The notes under the pieces are model-generated. The model ran no database searches. It saw nothing but the letters and a program-made list of their open reading frames with translations, and had not been told where the DNA came from. The position numbers and the translations under genes are program-made. 64,000 nt of DNA from Sipunculus nudus (taxonomy: Eukaryota > Annelida > Sipuncula > Golfingiida > Sipunculidae), in NCBI GenBank assembly GCA_026874595.1, contig CM049307.1:96136330-96200329 (forward strand). The letters run 5' to 3'. Positions 3,320-54,900 of the stretch are shown one piece after another (the stretch's first letter is position 1; the number at the start of each line of letters is the position of its first letter).

Positions 3320-3489
3320 CAAGGGACCCATGGGTCACGGCGCTCAGCTGATCGTGATTGGACTATAAATGTTTCTCCACTGTGATACTATATCGAGTTG
3401 ATAAAGCTTATGAATATCATGTACATGTTGGGCTATTATAAAGGAATGTAATGTAATATGTGAGTAAATGATAAATGAAACTAGAATAC

Positions 3490-5218
3490 GGGTAGTCGAC
3501 AAGCGACTATGTGTATCCGCCTAAATCAGAGTGGTACGGGTGAAGTGAGGCATGGATTGAGTGGCAAGGGAAAATTGAGTGTTGCATATTAGCATGGATG
3601 TCTGCAGCCAAACTGTGTATGTAGGTTGCCCCCCATACCACAAAATCCAGAAAGCCGTCCAAGTTGTATACATATGCAAAATTTAAGGCAGATAAGTCAA
3701 ACCACTACATGTATATGAGTGATTTTAGCCCGTGGCAGACAAACAGATGGACGCTGAGCAAAAATGGTTGCAGGTGACGCCACCAGTTTTGTGTATGATA
3801 AAGAGCTATGTGAGAACTATACACACGCAAAACTTTGGCCCAATCAGTCAAACGGTTCCCAAGATATGAGCTTGGATGTCTGCTGCATAAACTAGAATGC
3901 AGGTGGCGCCACCTGTCATAAAATCAAGAGAGCTGTCGGGGATGTATAAACCTGCAAAATTTTGGGGAGATATGTCAAACCACTGCCGAGATATGAGTGA
4001 TTTTATCCCATGGCGGACAAACAGACAGGAGCTGTGCAAAAATGGCTGCAGGTGGCGCCACCAGTTTTGCGTATGATGAAGAGCTATGTGAGATCTATAC
4101 ACATGCAAAATTTTGGCCCAATCGGTCATACAGTTCCCGAGATATGAGCTTGGATGTCTGCAGCGTAAACGTGAATGTAGGTGGCGCCACCTGTCATAAA
4201 ATCAGAAAAGCTATCCAGGATGTATACGCATGCCGAATTTCAGGTGAATTAGTCAGGTCACTGCAGAGATATGAGTGATTTTAACCCAAGGCAAACAAAC
4301 AGATGGACACTGTGCAAACATGGTTTCGGGTGGTGCCACCATTTTTTGTGTATGTTATAAAGCTCTCCAAGGGTAATATTTGAGCAAAAAAATTTTCCTG
4401 TTCGGTCAAATGGTTCCCGAGATATGAGCTTGGATGTCTGCAGCATAAACGTGAATGTAGGTGACGCCACCTGTCATAAAATCAGTAAAGCTATCCAGGA
4501 TGTGTACGCATGCCAAATATCAGGTGAATTAGTCAAGTCACTGCAGAGATATGAGTGATTTTAACCCAAGGCAGACAAACAGATGGACACTGTGCAAACA
4601 TGGTTGCAGGTGTTGCCACCATTTTTTGTGTATGTTATAAAGCTCTCCAAGGGCTACATTTGTGCAAAAAAATTTTCCTGATCAGTCAAACGGTTACCGA
4701 GATATGAGCTTGGATGTCTGCAGCGTAAATGTGAATGTAGGTGGCGCCACCTGTCATAAAATCAGAAAAGCTCTCCAGGATGTTTACGCATGCCGAATTT
4801 CAGGTGAATTAGTCTAGTCACTGCAGATATATGAGTGATTTTAACCCAAGGCAGACGACCAGATGGACACTGTGCAAACATGGTTGCAGGTGGTGCCACC
4901 ATTTTTTGTGTATGTTATAAAGCTCTCCAAGGGCTACATTTGTGTAAAAAAATTTTCCTGATCGGTAAAATGGTTCCCGAGATATGTGGGTTTATGTGTG
5001 GAAACAGACGCACAAATGGACGCAGAGCGCAGAGGAAAAGTCAGAGGTAAAAAAAAAATCGGGGCGCAGCAGTTCACATGTGACCCGAACATAATCCCGG
5101 GTTTCGTAAAATTCCGCCCAGCGGTTACGGAGGAGTTCTCCGGACACCTACGCGGTGGCGGCGGCGGCGGCCTGCAGCTGAAAACATAGTATCCGCAAAA
5201 CTCTGTTTTGGCGGATAC
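3490..5218 (+). mobile_element. Family C tandem-repeat element (about 280-bp units), copy 1
   Basis: A 5' hairpin (TAGTCG at 3493, CGACTA ending 3509) precedes arm GTATCCGCC at 3513. The body is about five imperfect units of roughly 280 bp, each with GAGATATGAGCTTGGATGTC. The end is a 30-nt hairpin at 5189-5218: GTATCCGC pairs with GCGGATAC, AAAAC with GTTTT, loop TCT. The 3' strand is complementary to the 5' arm. Perfect GGTGGCGCCACC palindromes lie at 3902, 4051, 4180 and 4740. A second copy is at 47773-49652. Confidence 0.8.
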
Positions 5219-5699
5219 AATTACCCGACTGATGGATTAATAGAGTCAAATAAAGTGGTTTATTTTTTATTTATTTAGGAGGGGTTGAAAATTGTAGTAT
5301 ATTTGAGCAAATATGAATGCAATGACAGCAGTAATAAGCAGTAGTCGAATGATGATAAGGCTATTTGTTGAAGGATCTAAAGTGTATGGTAGTCTGCAAG
5401 AGTTCAATTTGACAGATATAATGTTATGATTAACTATGCTGATGAAGTGATTTATGAATATGTGACTGTATGACACAATATCTCTTTAGTCTTGACAAGG
5501 TACATTATTGTGATGCCCACTATGTCTACATATTACACAATATTGACATAATTTCTGGCATGTACATAGGTACCTATGGACAAATAGTTATACAAAATAT
5601 TATGAATATATCTGATTCATCTTGTTCTTGCTTACTGAGGCTGACTTTGGGATGGGGTTCGGAGAAGGGAAAAGTGAGTGCAGCAAGAAGGTGGATGTA

Positions 5700-6020
5700 G
5701 AAATATTCTATTGTAATGTTTTTCATTTATATAAGAATATGAAAAGCTAAGAGGAAAGGGGCCCTCCTACTTGGTTATAGTAAAGTTCTAAATATATGAT
5801 TGCAAACTAATACTCTGACAAGACTGTCATGAAGAAAAACAGTAAAAGTTTTGAGATACTGTGTTGCATACGAAAATTTACAGATGGACAGGCAAGTGGA
5901 AAGAATGGACAAATACCTTTATTTCACTTTCAAGAGAATAATGCATTTAAGTTTATATTTAATCCTATTTTTTAAGCAGATCCACTTTTTCCATTAAGAA
6001 GTTTTTATCTGAATCATTTT
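5700..6020. repeat. Inverted single copy of the 29.0-kb repeat
   Basis: The reverse complement of this stretch aligns along its length with 28975-29290, including TACTTGGTTATAGTAAAGTT and the AAGAGGAAAGGGGCCCTCC core. Confidence 0.75.
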
Positions 6021-8182
6021 TTTATTTACAGGTTTATAAATTTTTAATTAAAAAACCTGAAAATATAAGTTAAAATATTAGAATTGTTGCAAAAGTTGCA
6101 ATCATTATATATACAGAGTAAAAAACATTGGGTCATATTATGCATACACATATATTTTATTATTTTTAAATCATAAATGTTTAAACTGATTTTAAAAGAA
6201 AATAATGCCACAACATGGCATGTACAAGAATATTCCTTGAATCACTATTAAAAAGTTTTGCACATTGGAGTTTTCAGGACATGCTTAATTTTATTCACCA
6301 AAATAAAATAAAAGTAAATTTGATAAAATAAAACATCTTTTCAAATAAAGTATACACACTGTTGGTTAGATGAGGGACAAACAATATCATTGTGCTAATT
6401 ACTATTCCAGTTTTAATTAATTACTGGAATTAATAGTCAATTTCACACCTGGTGAAGTTTTTACTCTTCTGAAGTAAGGAATTACTTATCTAATGAACAT
6501 CCACACTTTAACAGCAATACACCACTTTGTGGACACAATTAAATGTACACTTTATTCATTGTAACCCTGGTGGTTCAATACAAAATCTAAAATGTAGCAT
6601 GTCCAAGAATAAAATAAAATACAGAAAAATTATAACATTCATCTAGTTTATGCACCAGCTGGGGGGGGGGGGGGGGGGGCATGAGTGCAGGGCAGAGGGG
6701 AAGCCTGCTAGAAGTGGCCAAGCTGGGCCAAGGTAAGCTGCCTGGGGTGGGTTACATAATGCAAGTGAAGGCTGTACTACTAGGTGGGCTAGATGTAAAC
6801 AACACTTGACATGGTGTATGAAAACATGAATAAAAGCTTTTCATTCCAATCAATTTTCTTTGAAAGTTCAGATTTTAAAAGATTAAATCCTTATGCATAT
6901 ATGCTGGAAAAAAATTAAATCAACAGTGCCAAAGTTGGACAAAATTTAAGGTATTGATTTTTTATTTATGCTAATAACTTGAAAAATTTGCAAAATTCAG
7001 ATCTAATTTTGGTAAACAATTGAATCTTGATTAAATAAAGTTATATTCCTGAAAAAAAGTCTCTAGGTTCAGCAATTCTCATGTGAGTTAATATATTTCC
7101 TGATTTTTTAAAAAATTGCATTATGTTTTGGCCCATAACTTCAAAATAATACCCAATACTAACCTAATTTTTGGTATGTTCATAGAAAATTTATAAAAAA
7201 ATGTGAATACTAAATATGATCAAAAACAGATCAGTGGTTTTGATATTAGGCAGCCTTGAAGTGTAACAATGGCTTTTTTTTATGGAAAACAGAGGTTTTT
7301 TTTCCTTAATATCTCGAAGGAACAAAGTCCTAATGACCCAATTTTCGGTATGGTAGGAGATTTTGGGGACATCTAAAATTATGTCAACAGCCTGGGGAGC
7401 ATAGAGATGTGCACTGAATGACCTACAGTCATAAAAGTGGACTGCTTGACAATGTAAGGGAATACAACAAGAGCCTCCAAAAAAATTCAATAACTAGCCC
7501 AATTTTGCAGCTTTTATTATCATATTTCAGATTTTAACAGATTAAATCCTTATGTATACATGGTGTGAAAATTATATCCACAGTACTTACAGGAAAAAAA
7601 CGTGCCATGGCCAAAGTTGGGCAAAATTTAAGGTACCAATTTTATATTTTTGCCAATATTTATAAAAATTTAACAAATTTTAATCTAATTTTTGGTATAC
7701 AATTAAATTTTGATTAATTAAAGTTGTATTACTGGAAAAAAGTCCCTACCTTTAACACTTTTGGTCTTAAGTGACCAAATATCTTCCTGATTTTTTTTAG
7801 AAAGTCCATTATGTTTGGGCCCATAACTTTTTTAAATTATATAATACTGACTTAATATCTGGCATGTACATAGGAACTATATAGAGGAATATTTATGGTA
7901 GATATGAAGAAAACCAGATGAGTGGTTTTGATATTAGGCAGTCCTGAAGTGTAAAAATAGATTTCTAATAAAAAATTGAGGTTTTTCCTTAATATCTCAA
8001 AGGAACAAAGTCCTATTGACCCAATTTTTGGCATGGTAGGAGATTATGGGGACATCTAACTGTATGCCGAAATTCAGATTCGTAGGTCCAACGGTGTCAA
8101 AACGTGCCAGTCTTACGGACGGACATCCAGACGGACCGACGGACAGACAGACGGACGGACGATGGACAATGGACCATGACTA

Positions 8183-8213
8183 TAGCTCAGATGACTTATA
8201 GTCAGCTGAGCTA
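8183..8213 (+). repeat. Family A terminal hairpin
   Basis: A 31-nt near-palindrome: 8 bp (TAGCTCAG with CTGAGCTA), one mismatch, 5 bp (TGACT with AGTCA), 3-nt loop TAT. Other copies lie at 22881-22908 (partial), 24426-24456, 26757-26787, 47040-47070 (degenerate), 51331-51361 and 51923-51953. Confidence 0.85.
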
Positions 8214-8806: not shown

Positions 8807-9048
8807 TCATCGGCTTTGACTTGTTAACTTTTCTATCAACTCCTGTAAAGGTGCGAGTTCCTTCTTTTCAACCAGGCTGAATTCTTGGACAAAGAATATG
8901 AAGTGTTTGAAAGACGTGTTTAAGTGGGCTTCCTCTGACAGCTGAACCACCTGTTGAAAATGTTGATGATATATATGTGCATACACTCGGAACAGACGCT
9001 TTAGAATTGTTTTGGCAATCGACAGGAAATTTCTTGGGAATGGCACAC
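8807..9048 (-). CDS. MOB1: MOB1 coding exon 4 and stop
   Basis: 242 nt. The acceptor TTTCCAG precedes GTGTGCCATTCC; the exon ends LTSQSR and TGA at 8809-8807. It holds zinc ligands His161 and His166, and the C-terminal helices HLNTSFKHFIFFVQEF and ELAPLQELIEKL. The 3' UTR follows toward lower coordinates. No AATAAA on this strand was found close to the stop. Confidence 0.97.
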
Positions 9049-22600: not shown

Positions 22601-25600
22601 AGAAGGTATCAGTTGTCAACTAATAATATGCACATGTATATTGCATGTAAAAAGGTGTATTTGCCAAATTTTGTATGTGAAATATTTGGAATTAGTATTT
22701 CTGATGTCATTGAATTTGTTCCACAATTTTGAAATTGTAAGTCTTTGAAGGTGGAGACCTTGTAAGTGCAAATTTGGTTTGTCTTTTGAAAATAAGATTA
22801 AGTTGTTCCTGGAGTAATTTATATGACATTCAAACGTTTCTGCATGTATCAAGTTTTTAATTCAGGAAAATTGTCATTAGGTCAGCTGACTATAAGTCAT
22901 CTGAGCTATAGTCGTGGTCCATTGTCCGTAGTCCGGCCGGCCGACCGTTAACAGGGCACGTTTTAAAACCGTTGGACCTACGATTCCGAAATTTTGCATA
23001 CCATTAGATGTCCCCAAAGTCTCCGACCATACCGAAAATTGGGTCATTAGGACTTCGTTCCTTCGAGATATTAAGGAAAAACCTCTTTCAATAAGAAAGC
23101 CATTGTTACACTTCAAGGCTGCCTAATATCAAAACCACTGATCTGTTTTTGATCATATTTAGTATTCATATTCTTCCATACATTTTCTATGAACATACAA
23201 AAATTTAGATCAGTGTTGGGTATTATTTTGAAGTTATGGGCCAAAATATAATGCAATTTTTAAAAAATCAGGAAATATATTTACTCACCTGACATGAGAA
23301 TTGCCGAAGCTAGAGACTTTTTTTCAGGAATATAACTTTATTTAATCAAGATTCAATTGTTTACCCAAAATTAGATCTAAATTTTGCAAATTTTTCAAGT
23401 TATGAGCATAAATAAAAAATCAATACCTTAAATTTTGTCCAACTTTGGCAATGGCACAATTTTTCCCTGTAAGCACTGTTAAATTAGTTTTCACAGCATA
23501 TATACATAAGGATTTAATCTTTTAAAATCTGAAATTTCAAAGGAATTGATTGAAAAGAGTAGCTTTTTTTTCAAGTTTTCATACACCATGTCAAGTGTTG
23601 TTTACATCTAGCCCACCTAGTAGTACAGCCTTCATTTGCAATATGTAACCCACCCCAGGCAGTTTGCTTTGGGTCAGCCTGGCCACTATCAGCAGGCTTC
23701 CCCTCTGCCCTGCACTCCCCCCCCCCCCCCAACCCGATGGTGCATAAACTAGATGAATGTTATTATTTTCTGTATTTTATTCATTCTTATTCTAGGCTAT
23801 GCTACATTTTAGATATTGTATTATACCACCAGGGTTACAATGGTTTAAGTGCACAATTAATTGTGTCCACAAAGTGGTGTATTGCTATGAAAGTGTGGAT
23901 GTTCATCCGATAAGTAATTCCTTACCTCAGACGAGTAAAAACTTCACCAGGTGTGAAATTGACTATTAATTCCAGTAATAAATTAAAGCTGAGATAGTAA
24001 TTAGCACAATGATATTGTTTGTCGATAATTCAACCAACAGTGTGTATACTTTGTTTGAAAAGATGTTTTATTTGATCAAATTTACTGAATCTTTTATTTT
24101 ATCTCGGTGAATAAAATTAAGCATGTGCTGAAAACTCCAATGTAAAAAACATTTTAATAGTGATTCAATGAATAATCTTGTAGATGCCATGTTGTGGCAT
24201 TATCTTCTTTTAAATTCAGCTTAAACATTTGTGATTTAAAAATAGTTAAATATATGTGTATGCATAATATGACCCAATATGAGCTACACTCTGAATGTAT
24301 AATGATTGCAACTTTTGCAACAATTCTAATATTTTAACTTATATTTTCAGTTTATTTTACTCTGGATATATAATGATTGCAACTTTTGCAATAATTCTAG
24401 TATTTTAAATTATATTTTCAGTTTTTAGCTCAGCTGACTATAAGTCATCTGAGCTATAGTCTTGGTCCATTGTCCGTCCGTCCATCCGTCCGTCCGTCCG
24501 TAGATGTGGCACGTTTTGAAACCGTAAGACCTAGGAATCCAAAATTCAGCATAATGTTAGATGTCCCCAAGATCTCCTACCAAGCCGTTAACTGGGTCTT
24601 TGCGACTTCGTTCCTTTGAGAAATTAAAGAAAAACCTCAATTTTTTATTAAAATCCTATTTTCACACTTCAGGACTGCCTAATATCAAAACCACTCATCT
24701 GTTTTTCCTCATATTTACCATAAATATTCCTCTATATAGTTCCTATGTACATGCCAGAAATTAAGTCTGTAAAGTATAAATTCTTTAAGTTATGGGTCCA
24801 AACATAATGGACTTTGTAAAAAATCAGGAAAAATAATAACTCACTTAAAATGAAAAATTTTGAAACTAGAGTCTATTTTCTCAAGTATATAAGTATGTTT
24901 AATTAAGATTCAATTGTTTACCCAAAATTAGATCTGAATTTTGTAAATTTTTTAAGTTATTAGCATAAAAAAAATCAGTACCTTAAATTTTGCCCAACTT
25001 TGACCATGGCACGTTTTTTTCCTGTAAGTACCATTGATTTAATTTTCACAGCATGTAAACATAAATATTTAGTTTGTCTAAATCTGAAATTTGAAAATAA
25101 AAGCTTGAAAATTAAGCTGGTTATTGATTTTTTTTTCTGTAGTCACTTGCTTTGATTACAGATGCAGGGTCCCACTGCAGGTCACTGGAAGTCAGCTATG
25201 CCAGGGTTTCTGATTTGTTACAGTCACTGGGGGAGATCCCCTGCTGTGACAGGTGTACAGTTATTCTCATATCACCACCCCAATCAACCCCCCCCCCCCC
25301 CCCCCCCCCCCCCCCGCAAACCCAACCCACCAAGTGTTATGCAGTAATTGTTATTGTTTTCACTATATCTCCTTAATTGTAATGCTGTTACTCCGATATG
25401 CAAAAACTTTCCTTGAAAAAATAATTCAAGGTGTAATCCAGAAGATGCAATGTTGTGTAATGTAGCATTTCTAATAAATCAATTTTCTTTTAAATGATTT
25501 TAACAAATATAAATGAACCCATCAGTATGCTTAAATTATTATAAAATATAAAGCACATTATGGATAAATAAAGACACAATTAAAAATTGTGAAATCTAAA

Positions 25601-31600: not shown

Positions 31601-34600
31601 TGGAAACTTTTCACTGAATTATTTATATTGTAAATTGTACTTAGTAACTTTTTGTGCTAATTCAACCATCTACCATTTCAAGATAATTTTCATTAGCTTG
31701 TAATTTTAATGTAATTTCATCACTTTTTAATTTGGTTAAATTTGATGTGTTAGAATGAATTAACAACTGTTGTTATATGTAGATAATTGATATTAAAGTT
31801 GAATAATATTTTGTGTAAAGTTCTTAAGGTCTTGTGTTGAATATTAAACCTGTATACCATGTACATCACTGATATGGGTGGTTGGTTCACCTCAGGGTTT
31901 AATTTTCAGGTATATTGAGATCTTTAAGAGTAGTCTGACGGAAGTCATGTCTGCTTCACAACCACGCATGAGAGGCATGATGGGAATGGGAGGCAGGCCC
32001 GGGCCTTACGACCGCGTTGACAGGTTTGGCAACATGGGCGGTGGAGGCATGAACAACATGAACTCGAACGCTTATGGAGGTAGAGGAAGAGGTCGGGGAA
32101 ACATCAAAGGTCAGTCAGTGTGTGAAGCTCAAATGTGTTAATTTATTTTATTATTTAACAGTAGGTCACAAGCGTGTGCAATTAGTACTCAAATGGAGAT
32201 GGTTAAGGTAAACATTTAGAAAAGTTAATGTTTTGGAGAAAGTTGCCACTGTTTAAAGAAACTGGAGAGCTTTACAGTTTGGGAAGTGCCTTATTCAGGT
32301 TGAAATCTTTTGAACTATTGATTTAGTCTTGCACATTTTTTTTGTTAAATAATTCTCATAATATTCACTTATTAATCTTTAGCTGTCATCTTTTCTCAGT
32401 GCCATTTTGTATTGCAGCTTATGAGCTACTGCATTTAGCCACATTGTAAATGTCACTTTCTTACAGGTTCTTTCATGATTGTGACAGGTGCTTCGTTTTC
32501 TTTAAGGATACTTTGATGACTGTTACGATGACTTTGGCGGTGGTTATGGAGGTGGATCAGGTGGTGGTGGGTTTGGAGGTCGCGGCATGTCAAGGCGAGG
32601 CGGCATGGGAGGTGGCAGCATGGGTAACATGGGAGGAAGTCGGCGAGGAGGAGGAGGCGGCGGTGGCGGCGGCAGTATGGGAGGAGGAAGTATGAACCGT
32701 GGCGGTAACATGCAGGACCGAGGCGGTGGAATGATCCAGACATACACCAGTCAGACAGGACACTGTGTACATATGAGGGGGCTGCCTTTTGTTGCCAATG
32801 AACAGGACATTTTAGATGTAAGCATATTTAATTTGATGTCATTTGTTCAATCTATTATACTCCCCGCAACTGGAGATTTCTAGTTGTCTTCTGACATTGT
32901 TTGTCATCATCCTTCACGTCATATTATTGATAAGAAAAGATGATTATTTCAGTGGGTTGGTCATGTACGTGGGGGGGGGGGGTGTTGTCAGATGGGAGTT
33001 TACTGAATATATGTTCATAAGTTGTAGACCTGAGAAAGTTGTCCCAACACAAGCTACATTACATCCTTGTGAGATTAGTATTTATGGGACATTTAGGAAT
33101 TATTTTGTTAAAAAAAGGTAAAAAGAGGACACTATAGTGAAATATTCTCAGAAAAGGTTTTGTTTTCATTACTCTTGTCACTAGCTGCCAGCAAAACCCA
33201 ACCCTCATAGTTCTGTAGAGGCTTTATTGTATCCCCAGACAAAGTCGGGATACTATGGTTTCACGACGGTCCTGCCGCCACCGCAGAAAAACCTTGTCAG
33301 CGGGATAACTCAAAAAATATTTCACTGATCTTTTTCAAACTTTACATTTGTATAGATATAGGTAAGGGGACGAAGCCTATTTTTAAATGGGGTCATGACC
33401 TATGCTAGGAGAGTGACCTTGACCTTGAATAGGTCTATTTTTGCTGAAAATAATACAAATTCTTAAATATCTCAAGTAAGCTTGCATGGACTGGTCTAAA
33501 AATTAAGGTGACCGAAGATCTTGGATAGCCTTGTGATATACCGGAAACTGGTGGCACCACCCATTATCCTTTTATTGTTTTTACGCCTTTAATACCATCA
33601 TAATTGCCACTTGACAGTACTGTAAGTATTATAAGTCAAAAACTAATGGACAGATATCTTTCATATTATGCACATGTAGAGAGATGGGTTATGGGATGAG
33701 GTCTATTTACATTTTGGTCATGGCCTTTACCATGAGTGGCCTTGACCTTTAATGTGTCCATATTTGGTGAAAATCACACACCTCTTATGATATCTCCAGT
33801 GTTGATAGCCATATGGATTTCAGACGTGACTTATGTATGGCCCACCACTGAAGTAAGAACCCTATGGGTTCAAGGGTCATGAGGTCAAAGGTCAAGGTCA
33901 CTGGACTCGCATCTTAAAAGATACTGTGGATGTATTTTAAGCCAAACTTTCATCCCAGGTCTTCCATCTTGAATATATAGCTCACTTGCCAATAGTGGAT
34001 GATCCATATCAGTTTTGGGGTCACAGGGTCAAAGGTCAAGGCCACAGCTATCTGTCAAAAAATTAGTTTCTGGATGATAATTCTCTTATTGATGTATTGA
34101 TTTCAAACTTGACCTATATATGTCCCATTGAAAAAGCAAGACTCCAATTGATTTTGGGGTCAAAGGTCAAGGTCACAGGATACATCTTTAAAAAGATTGT
34201 GGATGCATTTTCAGCCAAACAATTCATCTCAGATCTTTCATCTTGCACATATAGTTCATCTGCCAATAGAGGAAGACCCCTATCAATTTTGAGGTCAAAG
34301 GTGAAGGTCACAGGAGCCATCTGTCCAAAAATTAGTTTCTGGATGATAATTCCTGCTTTTATTGATGTATGGATTTCAAACTTGACTTGTATATGACCCA
34401 TTGGAAAAGCAAGACCCGAATTGATTTTGGGGTCATGAGGTCAAAGGTCAAGGTCACAGGACATCTTTAAAAAAATGTGTATGCATTTTCAGCCAAACAT
34501 TTCATCTCAGATCTTTCATCTTGCACATATAGTTCACCTGCCAAGAGAGGAAGACCCCTATTTATTTTGAGGTCACTAGGCCAAAGGTGAAGGTCACAGG

Positions 34601-37556
34601 AGCCCTCTGTCCAAAAATTAGTTTCTGGATGATAATTCCTGCTTTTATTGATGTATAGATTTCAAACTTGACTTGTATATGTCCCATTGGAAAAGCAAGA
34701 CCTGAATTAATTTTAGAGTCATGAGGTCAAAGGTCAAGGTCACAGGACACATCTTTTAAAAAGATCAAGGTCACAGGACCAACATCTTCAAAAAGATTGT
34801 GGATTGATAGATGGAAGAAACAATAATTGCTTGCCAAGTGTCAGTATATGCTGCTAAAAATGGGGGCGTATTCTTAAAGGGGGGGCGTACTATGTCTGGG
34901 GATACTCTTGCACCTGCGCCGCCAAGAAATGTCTAGTTGGTATATACTGTGGAATTGCACCAATACATGGCTGGTTAAAGTTTGCTTTGTTGTGTTAATT
35001 CTTCCTTGCTTCTTTTTCAGTTCTTCCGCCCACTAAACCCAGTGAATGTGGTCATCCATTACAACAACGACGGGAGGGCGTCAGGCGAAGCTGATGTCGA
35101 TTTCTCAACACACGAAGAAGCCAAAGAGGCCATGAAGAGAGACAAAAATTCCATGCGTATGTATTACTTATCTAAAAATAATATAAAAATTTATAGGATT
35201 TTATTGAGCTCATTATGTGATTTGTAGTTTTCTTAAAATTTTATCTGGGAAGTAAATATAATGGCAGGATGATAGTTATTTATCCCAGGTATTTGTTTTT
35301 GGGACTGGGTATTAGTAATGAGATCCATTTAGGATTTACAATGCGAGCATAATTAGAAATAAAATACATTGCAGGCAAGGGACAGGTGGTAGTAGTAAAT
35401 TAGTGAGTTTGTGTTATCCAAGATGACATGTAAGGGAAAAGGGTAATTTTACAACATTTTCAGTTGAGTGAGTGGCAGCCTCACCATTTTCATCATTATG
35501 TATATTGCTTGATGTAGAAATTTCATAAACATTGACAGCAGTCCTTTAGGTTGATATGCAAGTACCATCTCTCTTGAATGTATCAAGTGATTCATGGATG
35601 GCCCTTGACAGGTGACATACATGTAACAGAAGCTTTAATCTTTAAATGTGTTTAACTGATTGTAATGATCCAGAGCATATACTTGTGGCATGTTACTTAC
35701 CTGTTTATATATTTTTACAGAGCACCGGTATATTGAATTATTCCTCAAGTCAACACCAGGTGGACGTCAGTCAATGGGAGGTGGATATGGCAGCGGTGGA
35801 GGAGGCGGTGGGGGCATGGGCCAGATGAGCCGTGGTGGTGGAGGCGCTGGAGGATACGGAGGCAGTGGCGACAACTTTGGTAACCGCAACTTTGGGGCAC
35901 GAGGTGGTGGGGGTAGGTGGCCGAATAACCTTAACCCACTGACCCCACCTTACCTTGATTTATATAACACCCCACCCTGCTACCTTTAATTATCACCACA
36001 CCTCGCTACCTTTTTATTAACACTCTAACCTGCACCTTTATTTATCAACTCTCAATCTTAACACCCCACCTTCTAGATGGCAGTCGCCTACCTTACTATA
36101 AAATGCAGACCCTCCATAACCTTCTATCCCTTTGCCACCCTTCAACCTTAAATTTAATCCCTATCCCTCAATATAAATAGAACATGCCACCCCAGCCTCA
36201 AACCCAACCCCGTCACCCCCACTCTCAACCTTGAAATGAATCCCAACTCCTTAACCACAAAAAATCATGCCACCCACAGCCTTAAAACACCACCCTTCAA
36301 CCTAAAATCAAATCCTTGTAATAAACATGCCACCCACAACCTGAAAAAAATAGGCCACCCAATAAAATCTGCATCATATAACTAAAACTGCACATGCATC
36401 TTTCAACACCATGATAGCACGTCAGCCTCACCCCTCAAACCTAGAAGAATACCTCTACCCTTCACTGTTGGAAATCAGTTGTAATTTCATTATTGATCAT
36501 TGGTAAAAATTGATTGGTCTCTACCAACCTGTCAATGTGTTATCGGAATTAATTGGTTCTTCAGTAGTTGGAAACTCTTAACATATTCAAACCAGTACAT
36601 CATCTTAGCTGATAAACAGGGCTTCATCTTGCTAATTATATGTAAAAATTCTATAGGTTTATGTAGCTATAGTAACCTTAGGTATGAAAGTAGTAGATTA
36701 TTAGATTTTTAGAGTTAGCTCACATAAATTGAATGAAGCATATATATCCTCATCACAAAGCTTGTTATTTGTAAAACTTTAAATTGATTATGGCAACCCA
36801 AGATCCGTGTTCAGATTTTTTTACATCAACTGACTAATCATAGATTATTATTAATCATCAGCCACTCCCCCTAAAAAAACTCTGTCCCATCTGCAAGCCC
36901 TTAAGACGCCCTCCGCTAAACCCTATAAACGTGCCTTACCCTTATGCTTTCATAATTATAAAAGGCATCATTTCTCAACTTTCAATATTAATCTTTTCTG
37001 CAGCTCTAACAATATTTAAACATCTCATGCTGCTCAAGCATTAACCTTGCAGACTGAAAACAGTACCTCTACTCTTTAGCCCTCAATTCTCATATAATCT
37101 AACAATATTACACACACAGTTGTACCCTATAACAGCAGCACTACTTTCAAAATGAGAGAGCCCCTCATCTCCTGTTTATGTAGCAATACCTGGTAATCCT
37201 TTCTTTCATCTATTAATACTGATTTGGTTCTAGGGTTTTGGTTTCCTACACAATTGGCATGCTAAAAATAGCTTACCTTGTATTACTAGTCAATCAGCAG
37301 ACTCATAATTATGTGATTTCACTTGTTTATACTTATGTTTTAATTAAGTGGTACAGGTTTATTTTTAGCTTTGGTAATGTTTTATTGTATACAGGTTGTG
37401 TTGTACAATAACTCCTTTTGTTAAGAGTGATTATTTTGTTCTGCAGGTAATTACGGTGGCGGCTACGGAGGCGGCGGCAACAGCATGGGCGGAGGTTACA
37501 ACAGTGGAGGCGGAATGAACAGCAATATGGGGAACCCAAACTACACTGCGTTTTAA
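19619..37556 (+). CDS. hnRNP H/F-like RNA-binding protein, complete gene (10 coding exons)
   Basis: Exons: 19619-19639, 21907-21997, 22450-22605, 29817-29951, 31068-31206, 31910-32109, 32507-32817, 35021-35156, 35721-35912, 37447-37556. Joined length is 1491 nt, or 496 aa; all introns are GT-AG with matching phases. Three quasi-RRMs lie at about residues 14-91, 113-187 and 332-405, marked by [16 protein letters not shown] and MRGLPF. A Gly/Met/Arg-rich linker spans about 198-325 and a Gly-rich tail runs from 408 to the end. This is the hnRNP H/H2/F layout. These proteins bind G-tracts in nuclear pre-mRNA and control splicing and 3' processing. GRSF1 lacks the Gly-rich regions and is less likely. 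The start at 19619 extends by seven residues from an in-frame ATG at 21907, the alternative start. Exact paralog assignment is not possible. Confidence 0.95.
19640..21906 (+). other. hnRNP H/F intron 1
   Basis: 2.27 kb between the start exon and exon 2. CCCGCCATTTTG at 19951-19962 resembles a YY1/E2F-type site within 350 bp of the promoter. The rest shows nothing recognisable. Confidence 0.6.
21907..21997 (+). CDS. hnRNP H/F exon 2 (qRRM1, first half)
   Basis: 91 nt. The acceptor TTTCCAG ends at 21906 and the donor GTAATG starts at 21998. It encodes an acidic lead (MNKDEDDG) and [17 protein letters not shown], the beta-1 and alpha-1 part of the first quasi-RRM. Confidence 0.95.
22450..22605 (+). 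CDS. hnRNP H/F exon 3 (qRRM1, second half)
   Basis: 156 nt. The acceptor is TTCCTGCAG and the donor GTATCAG. It encodes [20 protein letters not shown] and MGKRYIE, the RNP1-equivalent and last strand of qRRM1. The human H1 counterpart reads FIYTREGRPSGEAFVEL. Confidence 0.96.
22881..24360 (-). mobile_element. Family A (pearl-like) element, minus orientation
   Basis: The terminal hairpin is at 22881-22908, followed by a short CCGTCC/CCGGCC run and a body that matches the reverse complement of 6050-7500. A poly-C run lies at about 23720. Its 5' end is probably the arm at 28918-28948 or 29608-29638, making it the outermost of a nested set. Confidence 0.6.
24426..26311 (-). mobile_element. Family A element, full-length copy 1 of a tandem pair
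   Basis: Hairpin at 24426-24456, then a (CCGT)n run at 24475-24500. The body includes a poly-C run at about 25289-25315. The 5' arm lies at the high end: GTCAGCTGAGC at 26280-26290, then GTGACCCATAGGTCCCTTG. The arm is the exact complement of the outer part of the hairpin. Copy 2 at 26757-28670 is collinear over its full length. Confidence 0.8.
26013..26246 (+). pseudogene. Fragment resembling a LINE endonuclease domain, copy 1
   Basis: An open frame contains [20 protein letters not shown] then TN, the pattern QLI-PT...DHLFTN typical of the apurinic-type endonuclease of non-LTR retrotransposons. The normal downstream SDH catalytic motif is degraded. It lies antisense to the family A element that carries it. 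Recognition is by pattern only. Confidence 0.4.
26757..28670 (-). mobile_element. Family A element, full-length copy 2 of the tandem pair
   Basis: Hairpin at 26757-26787, a longer (CCGT)n run at 26815-26850, poly-C at about 27652-27674, and arm GTCAGCTGAGC at 28638-28648. Differences from copy 1 are scattered single changes plus length changes in the C and CCGT runs. Confidence 0.8.
28359..28616 (+). pseudogene. Fragment resembling a LINE endonuclease domain, copy 2
   Basis: Same frame as in copy 1, with [13 protein letters not shown] and [18 protein letters not shown] stands where SDH would be expected, so the catalytic Asp is replaced. It continues into [13 protein letters not shown]. Confidence 0.4.
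29012..29581. repeat. Tandem duplication, two 285-bp units
   Basis: 29012-29296 and 29297-29581 are nearly identical, both starting GTGGAAATGCTAAAATATAG. They differ by a base or two and by T-run length. A diverged single copy lies inverted at 5700-6020. Confidence 0.9.
29817..29951 (+). CDS. hnRNP H/F exon 4 (linker and qRRM2 start)
   Basis: 135 nt. The acceptor TTTGTTTCAG ends at 29816 and the donor is GTCAGG. It encodes [15 protein letters not shown], then [20 protein letters not shown], closely matching hnRNP H qRRM2 (VRLRGLPFGCSKEEIVQFF). Confidence 0.96.
29952..31067 (+). other. hnRNP H/F intron 4
   Basis: 1.1 kb, no repeat or ORF of note. Confidence 0.6.
31068..31206 (+). CDS. hnRNP H/F exon 5 (qRRM2, second half)
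   Basis: 139 nt. The acceptor CGTATAG is short of pyrimidines. The donor GTGGGAGG is followed by two more GGG triplets within about 25 nt. It encodes [24 protein letters not shown] and KHKEKIGH, matching qRRM2 of hnRNP H. Confidence 0.96.
31910..32109 (+). CDS. hnRNP H/F exon 6 (end of qRRM2, Gly/Arg/Met linker)
   Basis: 200 nt. The acceptor is TTTTCAG and the donor GTCAGT. It encodes RYIEIFKSS, then an [15 protein letters not shown] segment comparable to QRPGPYDRPG of hnRNP H1, and an NMGGGG and RGRGRG stretch. Confidence 0.95.
32507..32817 (+). CDS. hnRNP H/F exon 7 (Gly-rich linker and qRRM3 start)
   Basis: 311 nt. The acceptor TTTAAG is less common but phase-correct; the donor is GTAAGC. 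It encodes [16 protein letters not shown], a long [10 protein letters not shown] low-complexity region with nine consecutive glycines, then [19 protein letters not shown], the start of qRRM3 ([19 protein letters not shown] in human H1). The G-rich coding strand is itself a potential binding target for this protein. Confidence 0.95.
33229..34905 (-). mobile_element. Family D hairpin-ended element with AGGTCA-rich tandem units
   Basis: Lies in hnRNP intron 7. Inverted ends GTATCCCCAGACA (33229-33241) and TGTCTGGGGATAC (34893-34905). The left end is also a hairpin: GTATCCC with GGGATAC, a 2-nt bulge, GAC with GTC, loop AAA (33229-33253). The body has tandem units of about 270-290 bp with GATAATTC...TTTCAAACTTGAC and repeated AGGTCAAAGGTCA. 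A degenerate copy lies at 39540-40410. No coding capacity. Confidence 0.75.
35021..35156 (+). CDS. hnRNP H/F exon 8 (qRRM3, middle)
   Basis: 136 nt. The acceptor CTTTTTCAG ends at 35020 and the donor is GTATGT. It encodes [32 protein letters not shown] and MKRDKNSM, collinear with human FFSPLNPVRVHIEI and GEADVEFATHEDAVAAM. Confidence 0.96.
35721..35912 (+). CDS. hnRNP H/F exon 9 (end of qRRM3, Gly-rich tail)
   Basis: 192 nt. The acceptor TTTTTACAG ends at 35720. The donor GTAGGT at 35913 lies inside a G run. It encodes [14 protein letters not shown], then [15 protein letters not shown] and related repeats. Confidence 0.94.
35913..37446 (+). other. hnRNP H/F intron 9 with a G-poor CCACCC-rich first part
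   Basis: Its first ~550 bp (to about 36480) is strikingly rich in C and A on the plus strand (CCACC, CACCCC, AACCTTAA) and almost lacks G runs, right after the G-rich exon 9. No element ends or ORF seen. Confidence 0.6.
37447..37556 (+). CDS. hnRNP H/F exon 10 and stop
   Basis: 110 nt. The acceptor is TTCTGCAG. It encodes [16 protein letters not shown] and the C-terminus MGNPNYTAF, with stop TAA at 37554-37556. The 3' UTR runs to about 38470. Confidence 0.94.
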
Positions 37557-42888: not shown

Positions 42889-42985
<97 letters not shown>

Positions 42986-45900: not shown

Positions 45901-48900
45901 ACCTACACAGATCTATGAACACATCAGTCTAGGTTAGTTCAGAAGATCTGTAGTAAAATAACTCTTCATCTCTGTAATTTGCCATGTTAATGTATGAATA
46001 TGTTGCCTACTGTTAAGACTTTTAACCTTGTTTTTTATGGCTATGCTACTGTCAGCCAATTATATACTCTGCTACTCTCAGCCAATCAGATCAATGGCTC
46101 TGCTACTCTCAGCCAATCATATCAATGGCTCTGCTACTCTCAGCCAATCATACTAATGCCTCTGATACTCTCAGCCGATTATATCAGTCATTATATTAAA
46201 TGGCCTATGTAAATTCCTGCAGTTGGCTGACTATGAAAACATTTTTAGCAGATGACCAGATATGCATGCATGTTTTGAAATAATATATTTTGTTAAAACT
46301 TATAAAGTGAATACATGTACATCTTTTCCTCAAGAAAGTCTAGCTGAAAAATATAAAAAGACAAATTTTTTTTTTGAATTTTCAAGACATGGCATCTGAA
46401 TTACCTCAACTTTCAAGTATAATATACGAAACACGAACTGACTCTAAATATATCAATCCAACTGCAAGAGAAAAAATTAATACAACAAGAATAGGCAAGT
46501 GACGGGTTAAATTTTGAGAGAACAAGGGACCCATGGGTCACGGCTCTCAGCTGTTATATATGATAAAAAAATATGATTTGGAAATGAGGCACATGCTGGT
46601 TTTGTGTGGTTATAAATATAAGCTGTATTACAAGCTTATGTATGATTTTTTGATAGTATCTTTGGAGACAGGGAAGAGGATTATTTATTTTATCAACAAA
46701 TGGAGTGCTATTGTCACACAGATTTTGACTGTCCATAACTTTTTCAAATTATATAATACAGAATATATATGGTAAATATGAGGAAAAACAGATGAGTGGT
46801 TTTGATACTAGGCAGTCCTGAAGTGTGAAAATAGGTTTTTAATAAAAAATTGAGGTTTTCCTTAATTTCTCAAAGGAACAAAGACGCAAAGACCCAGTTT
46901 TCGGATTGGTAGGAGATCTTGGGGACATCTAACATTATGCCAAATTTTGGATACCTAGGTCCTACATTTTCAAAATGTACCACATCTACCGACAGCAGGC
47001 GCGACGGACAGACAGACGATGGACAATGGACCACCACTATACCTCAGATGAGTTATAGTCAGCTGAGCTAAAAAATCAAAATTGTCCAAGTCTCAACAAA
47101 AAGAATTAATTTAACATTAAAATAATAAGATTTCTCTTGTTTATTTGTCCTGTGTATTGAAGGGGTAATTAGGGGGAGGGGTCTCTGTTGTTACCGCTCA
47201 CTGCTAAAAAAATGTGAAAATATAAGATTCATCTATTTATAGTACAGGTCTGTCAACAGAATGGTGGGGGGGGGGGGGGGAGTAAGGCTCCCTGTGGTAT
47301 TAACTGCAGACAGTCTGATCAAGCTCAACAAGAGAGAGGGCTTGCCCCAGTAATGGGATTACATAATTAGAGCTGGGGGAGCATAGAGAGCTGCACTGAA
47401 TGACCTACAGTGACCAAAGTGGACTGCCTGACAATGTAAGGGAATACATCAAGAGCCTCAAAAAAAATATTCAATAACTAGCCTAATTTTGCAGCTTTTA
47501 TTTTCACATTTCAGATTTTAACAGATTAAATCCTTATGTGTACATGCTGTGAAAATAAAATCCACAGTACTTACAGGAAACAAGTGACCCATGGGTCATG
47601 ACGCTCAGCTGACTGGGAAGAGATTCACAAAAGGAAATTTTATCATCAGAATGGTAGATACCCATTCAACTGAAGCATCAAACAGATTAACCAACAGGCC
47701 AAGATTTAGTCTGTATTTATAGATCTGAAAAATAGAGAAAAAATGTGTAAACTTTAAAAACTAGAATAAGGGTAGCCGACAAGTGACTACGTGTATCCGC
47801 CAAAATCAGAGTGCAACAGGTGAAGTGAGGCATGGATTGAGTGGCAAGGGGAAACAGAGTGAGGTATGTTGCATATTAGCATGGATGTCTGCAGCCTAAA
47901 TGTGTATGTAGGTTGTGCCACCTACCACAAATCCAGAAAGCTGTCCAAGTTGTATACATATGCAAAATTTTAGGCAGAAAAGTCAATCCACTACATGGAT
48001 ATGAGTGATTTTAGCCCACGGCAGACAGACAGACACTGTGCAAAAATGGTTGCAGGTGGCCCCTCCAGTTTTGTGTATGATAAAGACCTATGTGAGATCT
48101 AAACACAAGCACAATTTTGGCCCAATCGGTCAAATGGTTCCTGAGATATTAGCTTGGATGTATGCAGCGTTAACTAGAATGTAGGTGGCGCCACCTGTCA
48201 TAAAATCAAGAAAGCTGTCCAGGATGTATAAACCTGCAAAATTTTAGGCAATCATGTCAAACCACTACAGAGAAATGAGTGATTTTAGGCCACGGCAGAC
48301 AAACAGACAGACGCTGTGCAAAATGTGCAAAAATGGTTGCAGGTGGCCCCTCCAGTTTTCTGTATGATAAAGACCTATGTGAGATCTATACACATGCAAA
48401 ATTTTGGCCCAATCGTTCAAACGTTCCCGAGATATGAGCTTGGATGTCATCAGCATAAACTAGAATAAAGGTGGCGCCACCTGTCATAAAATCAAGAAAG
48501 CTATCCAGGATGTATAAAACTGCAAAATTTTAGGTAAATATGTCAAACCACTGCCAAGATGTGAGTGACTTTATTGCACGGCAGACAAACAGACAGACGC
48601 TGTGCAAAAATGGTTGCAGGTTGTGCCACAAGTTTTGCGTATGATAAAGAGCTATGTTAGATCTATACATATGCAAAATTTTGGCCCAATCGGTCAAACG
48701 GTTCCCCAGATATGAGCTTGGATGTCATCAGCGATAACGAGAAAGTAGGTGGCGCCACCTGTCATAAAATCAAGAAAGCTATCCAGGTTGTATACGCATG
48801 CCGAATTTCAGGTGAATTAGTCGATTCACTGCAGAGATATGAGTGATTTTAACCAAAGGCAGATGAACAGATGGACACTGTGCAAACATGGTTACAGGTG

Positions 48901-51900
48901 GCGCCACCATTTTTTGTGTATGTTATAGAGCTATCCAAGGACTACATTTGTATAAATTTTATTTCCTGATCAGTCAAACGGTTCCTGAGATATGAGCTTG
49001 GATGTCATCAGCATGAACGTGAATGTAAGTGGTGCCACCTGTCATAAAATCAAGAAAGCTATCCAGGATGTATAAAACTGCAAAATTTTAGGCAGATATG
49101 TCAAACCACTGCCGAGATATGAGTGACATTATCGCACGGCAGACAAACAGACAGACGCTGTGCAAAAATGGTTGCAGGTGGCGCCACCAGTTTAGCGTAT
49201 GATAAAGAGCTATGTTAGATCTATATACATGCAAAATTTTGGCCCGATCGGTCAAACGGTTCCCGAGATATGAGCTTGGATGTCATCAGCGTGAATGAGA
49301 ATGTAGGTGGCGCCACCTGTCATAAAATCAAGAAAGCTATCCAGGATGTATACGCATGCCGAATTTCAGGTGAATTAGTCAATTCACTGCAGAGATATGA
49401 CTGATTTTAACCAAAGGCAGATGAACAGATGGACACTGTGCAAACATGGTTACAGGTGGCGCCACCATTTTTTGTGTATGTTATAGAGCTATCCAAGGAC
49501 TACATTTGTATAAATTTTATTTCCTGATCAGTCAAACAGTTCCTGAGATATGAAAATCAAGTCCCAGAGGAGCTCTCTGGAAACGAACGCAGCAACGGCG
49601 GAGGAACCCGGTCAAAAACATAGTATCTGCAAAACTTCGTTTTGGCGGGTACAAAAATACAGGTGGCTCCACCAGTCTGCAAAAACTAATAAAAACACTT
49701 AATGATCAATATCCATGCAAAGAATCATGGTGATCTCGGCATTAGTTGTTCAGATACTTCAGCTTTTGTATCAAATTGTCCATTATTCTGAGGGATACTT
49801 CGGAGTCCTATACCTTGAAGGATATGGGTAACAGAAACCTAATTTTAAGTTTCCACAGGCACTCTTCACGGGCCTCCTTGCATGACAAGAATGAAGATTC
49901 TACGTCCAGTTGTTGCGATTTGGACCCTGTTGACAGATAACCACATCTTTAAAGGTATCAAAAAAGAGAAAAAAAATCATAAAAATTTGGAAAAAATAGA
50001 GGTGGCGCACCCAGTCTGCAGAAACTGATGGAACAGGTCATGATCAATATGTATGCCGAAAATCATATCCATCACTGTTGTAGTTATTGAGATACTGCAG
50101 TTTTTGTATCAAATTTTCCATTATTCTGGGGGGTAATTTGGAGCCATACAGCTTAAAGAAAATGGGTAACAGAGACCTAATTTCAGGTTTCCATGGGGAC
50201 TTTTCATGGGTCTCCCTGTGTGTCAAGAATGAAAATTCTAGGTCCAGTTTTAATGATTTGTGCCCTCTTTACAGATGTTCATAACTTTAAAGGTCTCAAA
50301 AATAGAGAAAAAATTCATAAAAAAAACCCGAACAAATACAGGTGGTGCCACCAGTCTGCAGAAACTGATGAAACACTCCATGATCAATATCCATGAAAAC
50401 AATTATGGTGATCTCTGCATTAGTTGTTCAGATACTTCAGCTTTTGTATCAAATTTTCCATTATTCTGAGCTGTACTTTGGAGTGCCATAGCTCAAAGGA
50501 TATGGGTAACAGAGACCTAATTTCAGGTTTCCATGGAGACTTATCATGGGTCTCCCTGAGTGTCAAGAATGAAGATTCTAGGTCCAGTCATTACGATTTG
50601 TATCCTGTTGACAGATAACTACATCCTTAAAGGTCTCAAAATTAGCGAAAAAAAAATTGTGAAAATTTGAAAAAATACAGGTGGCGCCACCAGTCTGCAG
50701 GTACTGATGAAACACCTCTTGATCAATATGTATGCCAAAAATCATGACCATCAGTGTTGTAGTTATTGAGATGTTGCAGTTTGTTTTTATCAAATTTTCC
50801 ATTATTCTGGGGGGTTATTGGGAGCCCCCGATAGCTCAAAGGATATGGGTAACAGAGACCTTATTTCAGGTTTCCATGGAGACTTTTTATGGACCTCTCA
50901 GTGTGTCAAGAATGAAGATTCTAGGTCCAGTCTTTATGATTTATGCCTTGTTAACAGCTGTTCACATTTTTAAAGGTCTCAAAAATAGAGAAAACATTTA
51001 GTAAAAAATCGAAAAATACAGATGGCGCCACCAGTCTGTAGGAACTTATGGAACATCTCATGATCAATATGTATGCCAAAAATCATGACCATCAGTCAAG
51101 TAGTTAATGAGATATTGAAGTTTTTGTATGAAATTTTTGACTTTTCTGGGGGGTACTTTGGGGCCCCATAGCTCGAAGGATATGGGTAACAGAGACCTAA
51201 TTTCTGGTTTCCAAGGAGATTTTTCATGGACCTCTCAGAATCCCAAGTTACAAGGTTCTAGGTCCAGTGGTTACGATTTGTGCCTGGTTAACGGACGGAC
51301 AGACGGACAACAGACAAAGAGTGATCGCTATAGCTCAGATGACTTTCAGTCAGCTGAGCTAAAAAATGTGCCGTGGCCTAAGTTGGGCAAAATTTAAGGT
51401 ACCGATTTTATATTAATGCTAATAACTTAAATAAATAGCAAAATTCATACCTAATTTTGGTAAACAAACGAATCTTGATTAAATGAAGTTATATCCCTGA
51501 AAAAAAGTCTCTAGCATCAGCAATTCTTATGTTAAGTGAGTAAATATATTTCTTAATTTTTTACAAGGTGCATTTTGTTTGGGCCCATAACTTTAATAAA
51601 TTACGCAATACTGACCTAATTTTTGGTATGTAAATAGGAAATGCAGGGAAGAATATGAATATTTACTATGATCAAATTCAGATCAGTTGTTTTGAAATTA
51701 GGCAGTCTTGAATTGTAACAATGGGTTTTGAATGGAAATTGGAGGTTTTTCCTTAATATCTCGAAGGAACAAAGTCTTATTGACCCAATTTTCAGTATGG
51801 TAGGAGATTTTCTGGACATCTAACTGTATGCAAAATTTTGGATTCATAGGTCCAATGGTTTCAAAACAAGCCCTGTTAACGGACGGCCGGACGGACAGAC

Positions 51901-54900
51901 GACGGACAAAGGACCACGACTATAGCTCAGATGACTTATAGTCAGCTGAGCTAAAAATGTAAACATTTAAAAAAGGCCTTACAGTATAAAGATTTTAATA
52001 TAACCAACACTTTAACTCAAGGTAGGTGTTACATTACATACCTTGTATTCAAGTTTCCTCTTGTAAGAAGGATCTTTTAAAGCCTTTATGCGACATTTAT
52101 AAAAATCAGCAAAATTTATTTTATCTGTTTTCAGCCCCTGAGGTCTTTGACAACGTAGGGCAAAATGCATTCAATGTTTCAAAATCCCTTTATATATCTA
52201 TATTATAACTGATGGAGCTGAAATTTTGTGTGTTGCTTTGTAGGGATTGATGCCAAATGTGTCTCAAGGGGGTGGGTTATATTTTTACATATAAATCTTC
52301 AAGAATTTGATATAATTTTTTGAATGCACAAACAAAGCACCATCAATCAGAAACTACATCAGAGTGTCTAGTTCGCCTCATTTAATACTAGTCAGCCAGA
52401 TTCAAACTTGGACCTCGGAAAACCCATCCCAGAATAAGTGATGGATCTGTCCCAATGCAAGACTGGGTAATACTAGTATGCTAGTAATCTATCTCACTTG
52501 GGATTTCATCGGACCGCCACAATACAGGAAATAGAGATAAACTAAATGTGTCGGAACGACACGAATGCCCCTGCCTAGAGCAAATTAGAAATATTTGTTA
52601 AATTTTGTAAATTTTTTTAAGTTCAGGAGGTGTTATATGGTCAAAAGTAGGTCACCAAGGGCAAATTGCAAACTCAATCTGTAACGGGTCATTATCAAGC
52701 AACACACCAAAAATCAGGCCCATATCTGCAGGCATTGCGAAAAAAAGTCTGTACATGTGCATTTTTCATGAAAATTTCTAAGTTAAGGAGCCGTAAAACG
52801 GTCAAAATTAGGTCAACCAGGACGAAACGAGAACTCGATCTGTAACTGGTCATTATCTGCCGACACACCAAAAAATCAGGCCAATATCTGCAGGCATTGC
52901 GAAAAAAAGTTTGTACAACTGTTTGATTTTGGAGTGATGGAAGGACAGAATGACAGACATGGATAAAACTATATGCCCCGGCCACTTTGTGGCGGGGGCA
53001 TAGAAAATATTCATGACTGGCAGCATATTGTGTTGTTAAATCCAAAGGTGTCAGCACTTGAGCTGTGTTGGAAAGAGCATTTCTTAGGCTTAATTTATGC
53101 TGATTCACACATGTGAAGCATAATGGTGTACTAGAATCAAACTTCTAGGTGCTATAGAGGTTGCTGTTTAAGAAAATGGCTTCCGCATTATGGCAGTTGT
53201 AGAGGTAATTGCTTCATGTCAAGTAATGACTGATCAGTCCGAAAGAATATAACAGTAATAAACCCATGTCCAGTGATTAGAATGTGGAGGGAGATGCCTG
53301 CAATAACACTGCTTTTATACAGACAGTTATTTCCTGGGTGATACCCTTGGTGTCAAAGGTCAAACTTGGATATTTCTGATTCCTTAGAATCACACCATAC
53401 TTGTGACAAATTTCATTCAGTGGAGTTTTGTTGCTTTGATAACAGTACAATAAATAAAAATAGTTGTAATCAAAGGAGTTAAATAATGAAAAATTATGAC
53501 AATATCAGGATTTATTTCTATTCTAATGGAAAGTTAGTTCATACTACCAAGAAATATATTACATAAAGATATTATTAAACAAAAAATCCAAGTCTCAAAA
53601 GGTTGATTGAGCTCAAATAAACTTATGTGCTTAGTTACATCTACAAATACTTCTCACATGAAGCAGGCCCAGTTTGGAAATTTTAATAACGATTCTCTAC
53701 ATGACTAAATTTAGTCTCTGAAACTAGCTCTATGAGTGTACTTACCCATCACCATAGAAAATGAATTTAAATCACACTACACTGCATGCAAACTTTGCCC
53801 ATAACCAATTGATAAAGATAGAAAAAGAGACTGAAAAAAGGTTAAAACTCCATACTGATTTACAGTGTTAATATTTTAATCACTATTTTAAATATTAATT
53901 TATATTTTTGTGACATATTTGACACCATAATCCTTAAAACATCCATACTGGTATTTAAAGCAGCATGCCTGAGAGAGTTAACAAAAAAAAATACCCCAAT
54001 ACAAATTCATACGAAACACTATGAACTGTGCCCTGTATGGCAAAAATGCTAGGGGATAGATAAGACTGATAAGAGATAAAGACTGATAAGAAAAAAAGAT
54101 AACAATTTATCACTACATACCTTTGGTGTAAGGGACAGCTGGGAAATATTCCAGAAAATTGGTGGAAAATATAAATATACAAGCAGTGCTCCATAATACC
54201 TCAATACAACATACATGTCCTACAGCACGTCCTACTTGGCAGTGCCCATACTGACTAACACTGAAAACATTTTAATAGCAAGACTGCCACTGTGGAATTT
54301 ACTTATATATGAAATAATCCTGGACAAAATCAAATTCTAAAAAATTATGAAAAAGTATAAATCTGAGTCAATATGCCCAATTTGTAGTATAACGTTAATT
54401 ATTGAGCAGGTTTTAAGTAAAAAGCACCAATGCTTAAGCAAGCATAAGTACTTTCCTAGCTTTCACTCTTATATTCTTAAATTTAAAAAATGCAGATCTT
54501 GATTAGTGATAGCATATCATTCAATAAACATTATTAAAAATACCCATGGTAACTTTCACTGCTCTCATCTTTTAATTTCAATTGTAGCTTAAATACATGT
54601 GTAAGAATAGTTATAAGAACCCTAAATATATGATGTAGTGGTAAAATGTAAATTTTTTAAATTATCAGACCTGAAAGAAAATCGGATTAAGTGACTGAAA
54701 AACAATTTTTTTAACAAAGTATACAGTGGCAGCACTGCTAAAGATAGCATAGAACTATATCATTATCAGCTGTTGTCATCAAGGCAGACAATAAACTGAC
54801 ATATTTAACTGTTACATTTACACAAAACCACAAAGCATAGCTGTCTTAAAGCAAAATGTGCTGATCTTCAAAATCTGTTCTTTTTCAATGATTTTTTTGT

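Follow-up and report, generated by a model that had tools for sequence, protein, structure and literature searches.

Helitron2 and Helentron elements as the closest described systems

Helitron2 elements form hairpins at both ends and carry asymmetric terminal inverted repeats (ATIRs) of 8-15 bp, the 5' ATIR lying in the 5' hairpin and its 3' counterpart immediately preceding the 3' hairpin (PMC3627910; this and the other papers cited are drawn on in extract). Bao and Jurka (2013) proposed that the 5' hairpin is lost when the two ATIRs pair and that this may fix the end point of replication, and Helitron-1N1_CRe is described as inserted after TTTT without duplication (PMC3627910). Helentrons and their HINE derivatives have the parts of Helitron2 under other names (Thomas et al. 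2014, PMC4067079). Four repeat families, A to D, which share a stretch of 64,000 nucleotides of Sipunculus nudus DNA (contig CM049307.1, positions 96,136,330 to 96,200,329; hereafter the window), are very probably non-autonomous elements of this Helitron2/Helentron kind (HINE/DINE-1 type), presumably moved by a Rep(HUH)-helicase-endonuclease mechanism.

The window families have in common with Helitron2 the layout of hairpins and ATIRs and the proposed alternative pairing; they differ in having sequences of their own, in the 3' terminus CTWGTT (W is A or T) and in a constant mismatch or bulge in the 5' hairpin, for which the main text of PMC3627910 does not use the word "mismatch". With Helentron, HINE and DINE-1 elements, as these are described, they share subterminal inverted repeats (subTIRs), an inverted copy by the 5' subTIR, a 3' stem-loop, a microsatellite, central repeats and an unmodified T-rich target and, for family A, an endonuclease-type partner; the families are likened to these elements by anatomy. 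Anatomy is also what they share with Cg_HINE of the Pacific oyster (PMC7492417), namely a subTIR of 11-12 bp, a 5' inverted copy, a GTCC-type microsatellite, central repeats, a 3' palindrome and T-rich sites. The Cg_HINEs are reported not to be relatable to any of 10 autonomous elements (PMC7492417), whereas family A is linked to an autonomous element here. Rolling-circle elements are described as plentiful in bivalves (PMC10294476). The four families are further members of the known Helitron2/Helentron kind, to which the link between A and its parent and one testable regularity of the 5' hairpin are added. In the window and its genome, one published fold is retained by four families that differ in end sequence. 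Family A, the commonest-looking, is connected with a parent Helentron, which the oyster study, on its published account, could not achieve for its own elements.

End anatomy and boundaries

In true orientation every family starts with a 5' ATIR set in an imperfect 5' hairpin; the body follows, then a 3' ATIR and a small 3' hairpin, and the terminus is CTWGTT. Family A has the ends TTTTT|AGCTCAGCTGACTATAAGTCATCTGAGCTATAG (5') and (G)TCAGCTGAGC-5 nt-GACCCATGGGTC-CCTTGTT (3'), and family B the ends TTTTT|ATGCCCCCGCCACAAAGTGGCCGGGGCATATAG and GGCGGGGGCATTCGTGTCGTTCCGACACATCTAGTT. Family C starts at TAATT|GTATCCGCCAAAACAGAGTTTTGCGGATACTATG and ends, in a consensus drawn from three copies only, with GGCGGATAC, a hairpin of the GTCG..CGAC type and TTCTAGTT; family D starts at TNATT|GTATCCCCAGACAAAGTCGGGATACTATGG and ends with TGTCTGGGGATACTCTGGCACCTGCGGTGCCAAGAAATGTCTAGTT. 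The 5' ATIR lies within the 5' hairpin or beside an inverted copy in all four, and the 3' ATIR stands some 20-60 bp from the 3' end and is followed by a stem-loop, which is decayed in the window copy of D. These ends are not those of canonical Helitron1, which starts with TC, ends with CTRR, targets A|T and lacks a 5' hairpin: ATIRs and 5' hairpins are present here, A ends in CTTG, and B, C and D end in CTAG with no TC start.

A first-pass annotation of the window had described a common end plan of a small 5' hairpin, an arm, a body and a terminal hairpin complementary to the arm. The plan is real in all four families, but it had mostly been read backwards, and it is the plan already published for Helitron2 and Helentrons. 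For A, B and C the supposed 5' end is the biological 3' end, and an arm-bearing hairpin at the 3' end is rejected, the arm hairpin being the 5' end. In D the 5' hairpin begins with the arm itself, at 33229, as its first strand; the small hairpin (consensus GGCACCTGCGGTGCC) is found at the opposite end, after 34905. The arms and their complements are all found in the window, where the strands of B differ by one base (its genome consensus has a perfect 11-bp ATIR). The arm was said to occur twice direct and once inverted; in each consensus its second direct copy is inexact, with one mismatch in A and B and a bulge of 1-2 nt in C and D. Nor are the families entirely unrelated in sequence, as had been stated, since they share the short 3' terminus, which is CTAGTT in B, C and D and mostly CTTGTT in A. 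It is intact in 19/25 3' ends of B and 19/20 of D, and among 24 3' ends of A there are 21 with CTTGTT and two with CTAGT. Families C and D, both of which start with GTATCC and have TACTATG after the hairpin, may, judging from these motifs, be related to each other.

Copies were sought in the genome (1.43 Gb), and their alignment bears out the earlier placement of arms and hairpins at element boundaries. Conservation is mostly 1-2 bits inside and at most 0.8 bits outside the ends, falling sharply, in profiles of A (19 5' and 24 3' ends), B (26 and 25, from 31 loci, that is, 30 and the Rep locus L036), C (15 5' ends from 16 fetched, L135 being too short and left out) and D (20 and 20). Scores for the 5' end of D were taken from the best 40 of 2457 first-look candidates, one of them the window copy; the 39 others (94-98% identity) start at query 14-28, 37 of them at 23-28, so that similarity begins just ahead of GTATCCCC at query 30. 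For its 3' end (the best-scoring 40 of 1794) the 39 others end at query 139-148, which is CTAGTT (query 134-139) or at most nine bases beyond. For the 5' end of C (the best-scoring 40 of 2371), 30 of 39 others start within query 58-71, close to or exactly at TAATT|GTATCC (TAATT being query 68-72), and the remaining nine match on through the flank as well.

Target sites

Families A and C insert into a T-rich target without duplicating it and without loss, because the joined flanks of one A and two C copies match empty sites. When the first C copy (3479..5218) is excised in silico, the 240-base join matches all 40 places scored, out of 1188 first-look candidates, over exactly 240 bases at 98-99%. 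The joined flanks of the A element at 51360-47579 carry seven T, as do three intact copies, and those of the second C copy (47759..49652) align through the junction without a gap with two of the four sibling repeat units compared. For B and D the description of the target comes from their T-rich flanks. The two terminal T can be assigned to one end or to both, an ambiguity that the mite study also describes (PMC4067079).

Short inverted repeats near both ends, the lack of any Rep match listed in the window (150/195 candidates scored) and a high copy number (56,497 arm matches in the genome as against 56 for a reversed control pattern, which has two CpG and is probably biased low) are also what would be expected of miniature inverted-repeat transposable elements (MITEs) of a cut-and-paste DNA transposon, the class in which pearl-like elements were once filed. 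The empty sites, none of which shows a target-site duplication, refute this origin for A and C. The inverted repeats are moreover asymmetric, the 3' repeat lying internal to a hairpin and a terminus, and A ends bound a Helentron, which leaves a MITE origin of the families very improbable.

The autonomous Helentron partner of family A

Judged from its ends, family A is traced to a large protein-coding Helentron parent in the same genome. The Rep search, in which 150 of 195 candidates were scored, yielded 143 matches, with open frames of up to about 2400 aa. One Helentron copy, on C17, has an open Rep frame of 2342 aa and an A-type 3' end 1 kb beyond the remains of an endonuclease; over the 630 bp that lead up to this end, the identity with it is 98.9% for a copy on C5 and 98.6% for one on C10, and the similarity of all three stops at GTCAGCTGAGC..CACTTGTTT. 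Upstream, the C17 and C5 copies are similar from TTTTT|AGCTCAGCTGACT on, with a difference between them there of about one central repeat. The A ends are thus found on the Helentron in three copies at the 3' side and in two at the 5' side (C17, C5), and the autonomous Helentron with the same ends that the first-pass annotation proposed to look for is present for A. Between the 5' start of the C17 copy and its Rep frame lies a 2-kb stretch to which four other places align over 1998 or more of its 2000 bases. By its coordinates the C17 element measures about 14.9 kb, of which all was read but 3.6 kb that hold the Rep-to-helicase stretch; in this length the partner differs from the described Helentron, HINE and DINE-1 elements. 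The C17 Helentron contains another A 5' end, as the C5 copy does, and has a family C element inserted in it. The A element at 47579-51360 of the window shares its 5' 1.25 kb (microsatellite and 340-bp repeats) with the C17 copy at 76%, agrees with it in 35/36 terminal 3' bases and has an identical 11-bp subTIR; at least 11 bp of identical subTIR is the family rule given for Helentrons, and at least 80% over the last 60 bp the subfamily rule (PMC4067079).

The full set of Rep, helicase and endonuclease for the partner rests on C11 and C13 rather than on C17. A related copy, on C13, has a clear endonuclease domain, and another lineage, on C11, has Rep, PIF1 and Exo_endo_phos domains. The C11 locus (C11:50385293; L012, L075, L076) has an intact frame of 2235 aa with DUF6570, OTU, Rep, PIF1 and endonuclease domains and STPR repeats, and its 3' flank is shared over the full 1.9 kb with three other copies, at 98-99%.

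Several observations weigh against a derivation of the four families from Helentrons of this kind. The window A element agrees with the C17 copy at 39/60 over the last 60 bp, which is below the subfamily rule, so that by these rules the two would belong to one family but to different subfamilies. The endonuclease matches of the C17 copy fall under the Pfam cut-offs (25.5 versus 27.4 and 20.1 versus 24.5 bits), and because of this the C17 copy may be decayed. No end of the C11 lineage lies within its 1.9-kb 3' flank, the end being further out, and no A-type 3' end was found in the 1.2 kb fetched at three of seven further autonomous loci (L082, L084, L085). The C13 copy has an ATIR match of 10/11 only, without the 3' hairpin of A, and extending it 2 kb upstream (L078) revealed no 5' end of A. 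At the second C copy the junction is longer in the other two of the four sibling units, by one and three bases. No partner of B, C or D was found among 30 Rep loci with 1.5-kb flanks, the ends of most Rep lineages lying outside the stretches read. L036 was rejected as a partner of B, since the B end adjoining this Rep locus points away from it.

The earlier claim of one mobilising machinery for all four families, which has its autonomous partner for A, is therefore unproven for B, C and D. These three might instead be moved by machinery other than that of A, nearer to the proto-Helentron or canonical type, a possibility that we regard as real although unlikely. They can be read as starting with TT and ending with CTAG, and C and D as inserted between A and T (TNA|TT), TNATT standing before 18/20 5' ends of D and 15/15 of C (samples of best-scoring matches, biased towards the flank of the window copy). 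The proto-Helentron-Pi element is described with 5' TT, 3' CTAG and an A-T target (PMC4067079), resembling C and D, as does FoHeli1/2 with its TNAT|T target (PMC5148889); each likeness is one of a few terminal bases. However, a second probable autonomous lineage (L081, L083) with A-like ATIRs ends in CTAGT, and CTAG is therefore no mark of separate machinery; TTTTT stands before 20/26 5' ends of B as it does before 14/19 of A, and the TT can be counted equally to the 3' end. On the reading preferred here, a related protein would move B, C and D.

A regular imperfection in the 5' hairpin

The 5' hairpins of the window copies fold better than shuffled sequences in A (z -4.85 and -5.90), B (-5.25) and C (-3.21). 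The small 3' hairpin is unusual in B (z -3.25) and ordinary in A (-0.88 and -0.47) and C (-0.76). For the window copy of D, folded on the strand opposite to that of the element, the 5'-hairpin stretch gives z -1.85 and the 3' end +1.27 (188/200 shuffles as good). Chance hairpins in low-complexity or satellite DNA might be suspected, as central repeats and microsatellites are present and some 3' hairpins are no better than shuffles. This explanation is ruled out by sharp multi-copy boundaries, by the empty sites and by the way in which the 3' ATIR, the arm and the hairpin strand complement one another in four families, and its probability is negligible.

In the four families the imperfection of the 5' hairpin follows a regular pattern. 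Stem position 8 is unpaired in 19/19 A and 26/26 B 5' ends, the other positions being paired in 79-100%; these ends were chosen with near-consensus patterns, so that copies with broken hairpins are absent from the counts. In C the hairpin has one bulged base (13/15 hairpins identical) and in D a two-base bulge (16/20 identical), and the loop is 3 nt in each of the four consensuses. As copies within a family share descent, the regularity amounts to four observations at most. The ATIR duplex is perfect over 11-13 bp in all four consensuses and lacks the mismatch or bulge of the hairpin. Its energy compared with that of the hairpin (kcal/mol) is -14.3/-9.6 in A, -17.0/-12.1 in B, -15.7/-10.0 in C and -15.6/-4.8 in D, values that set an intramolecular hairpin against a two-strand duplex and serve as a ranking, not a prediction. 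The two alternative foldings noted earlier correspond to the proposal already published by Bao and Jurka (2013). In the second probable autonomous lineage (two loci) a 3' hairpin GGCC/GGCC replaces GACC/GGTC, a paired change.

In the proposed mechanism an autonomous Rep(HUH)-helicase-endonuclease protein would recognise the ends; one strand would be peeled off or copied from the 5' end, with a halt at the 3' end; the 3' ATIR, newly exposed there, could pair with its 5' counterpart, which would undo the weaker 5' hairpin; and the element would join a T-rich site without duplicating it. The weak point of the hairpin would be the fixed mismatch or bulge between an outer stem of 7-8 bp and an inner stem of 3-5 bp with its 3-nt loop. 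Because of it the 5' hairpin would be weaker than the duplex of the two ATIRs, and arrival of the 3' ATIR would switch the fold. We suggest, speculatively and with more doubt than confidence, that the 5' hairpin is built to lose, the switch on arrival of the 3' ATIR ending replication, and that a group of Helentrons within one genome reads hairpin geometry and CTWGTT while the arm drifts freely. The tolerance for end sequence but not for end shape that had been suggested earlier fits both the data and the literature, with the qualification that the short terminal CTWGTT is kept too. The steady weakness of the 5' hairpin makes the published switch proposal testable by a simple mutant series.

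Elements and neighbouring sequences of the window

Family A lies on both strands of the window, B and C on the minus strand and D on the plus strand. Two complete A elements are on the plus strand: one at 24427..26313, with the 5' hairpin at 24427-24455, a GTCC microsatellite, the 3' ATIR at 26280-26290, a 3' hairpin and the terminus CTTG, and one at 26758..28672, 92% identical to it, with the 5' hairpin at 26758-26786 and the 3' ATIR at 28638-28648. On the minus strand an A element at 3318..8212 (5' arm ending at 8212, 3' terminus 3318-3320) contains the first C copy (3479..5218, minus strand), whose 5' hairpin is at 5218-5189 and whose 3' ATIR (3521-3513) is followed by a 3' hairpin and the terminus CTAGTT (3484-3479). 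Nine other loci have C with the same 72-bp A-derived flank as this copy, apparently one composite that was copied whole; such loci are expected from the copying of an A element with C already in it, or from segmental duplication.

The A element akin to the autonomous Helentron (47579..51360, minus strand) has its 5' hairpin at 51360-51332, a microsatellite, 340-bp central repeats at 49653-51281 and its 3' end at 47613-47579; the second C copy, also on the minus strand, is inserted in one of its central repeats. This element in turn sits within, and breaks up, another A element on the same strand, of which the 5' part is at 51361..51952 and which resumes from 47578. The B element (52540..53001, minus strand) has its 5' hairpin at 53001-52973, its 3' ATIR at 52575-52565 (one change), its 3' hairpin at 52562-52548 and the terminus TTAGTT, where the consensus is CTAGTT. 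The D element (33229..34938, plus strand) has its 5' hairpin at 33229-33253, central repeats at 33875-34762, its 3' ATIR at 34893-34905, the decayed 3' hairpin and the terminus CTAGTT at 34933-34938.

Joined or doubled ends occur at three other loci. At L063 (393-431 on the minus strand) the 3' end of A is joined directly to an A 5' end (CCCTTGTTTTT AGCTCAG), head-to-tail, as from a tandem copy or an insertion at a terminus. At L044 the B 5' hairpin is doubled, at positions 1205 and 1244, 39 bp apart at one element end. At L059 two D-like 5' ends with a longer hairpin (GTATCGCCAGACATAGTCTGGAGATAC) lie at 2545 and 2956, 411 bp apart, and this pair is a D relative in tandem. Probable host exons in the window lie at 9589-9894 (minus strand), 22431-22748 and 35020-35160 (plus strand); we take them to be a MOB1-like stretch and RRM stretches of an hnRNP-like gene. 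The D element directly precedes one of the RRM stretches.

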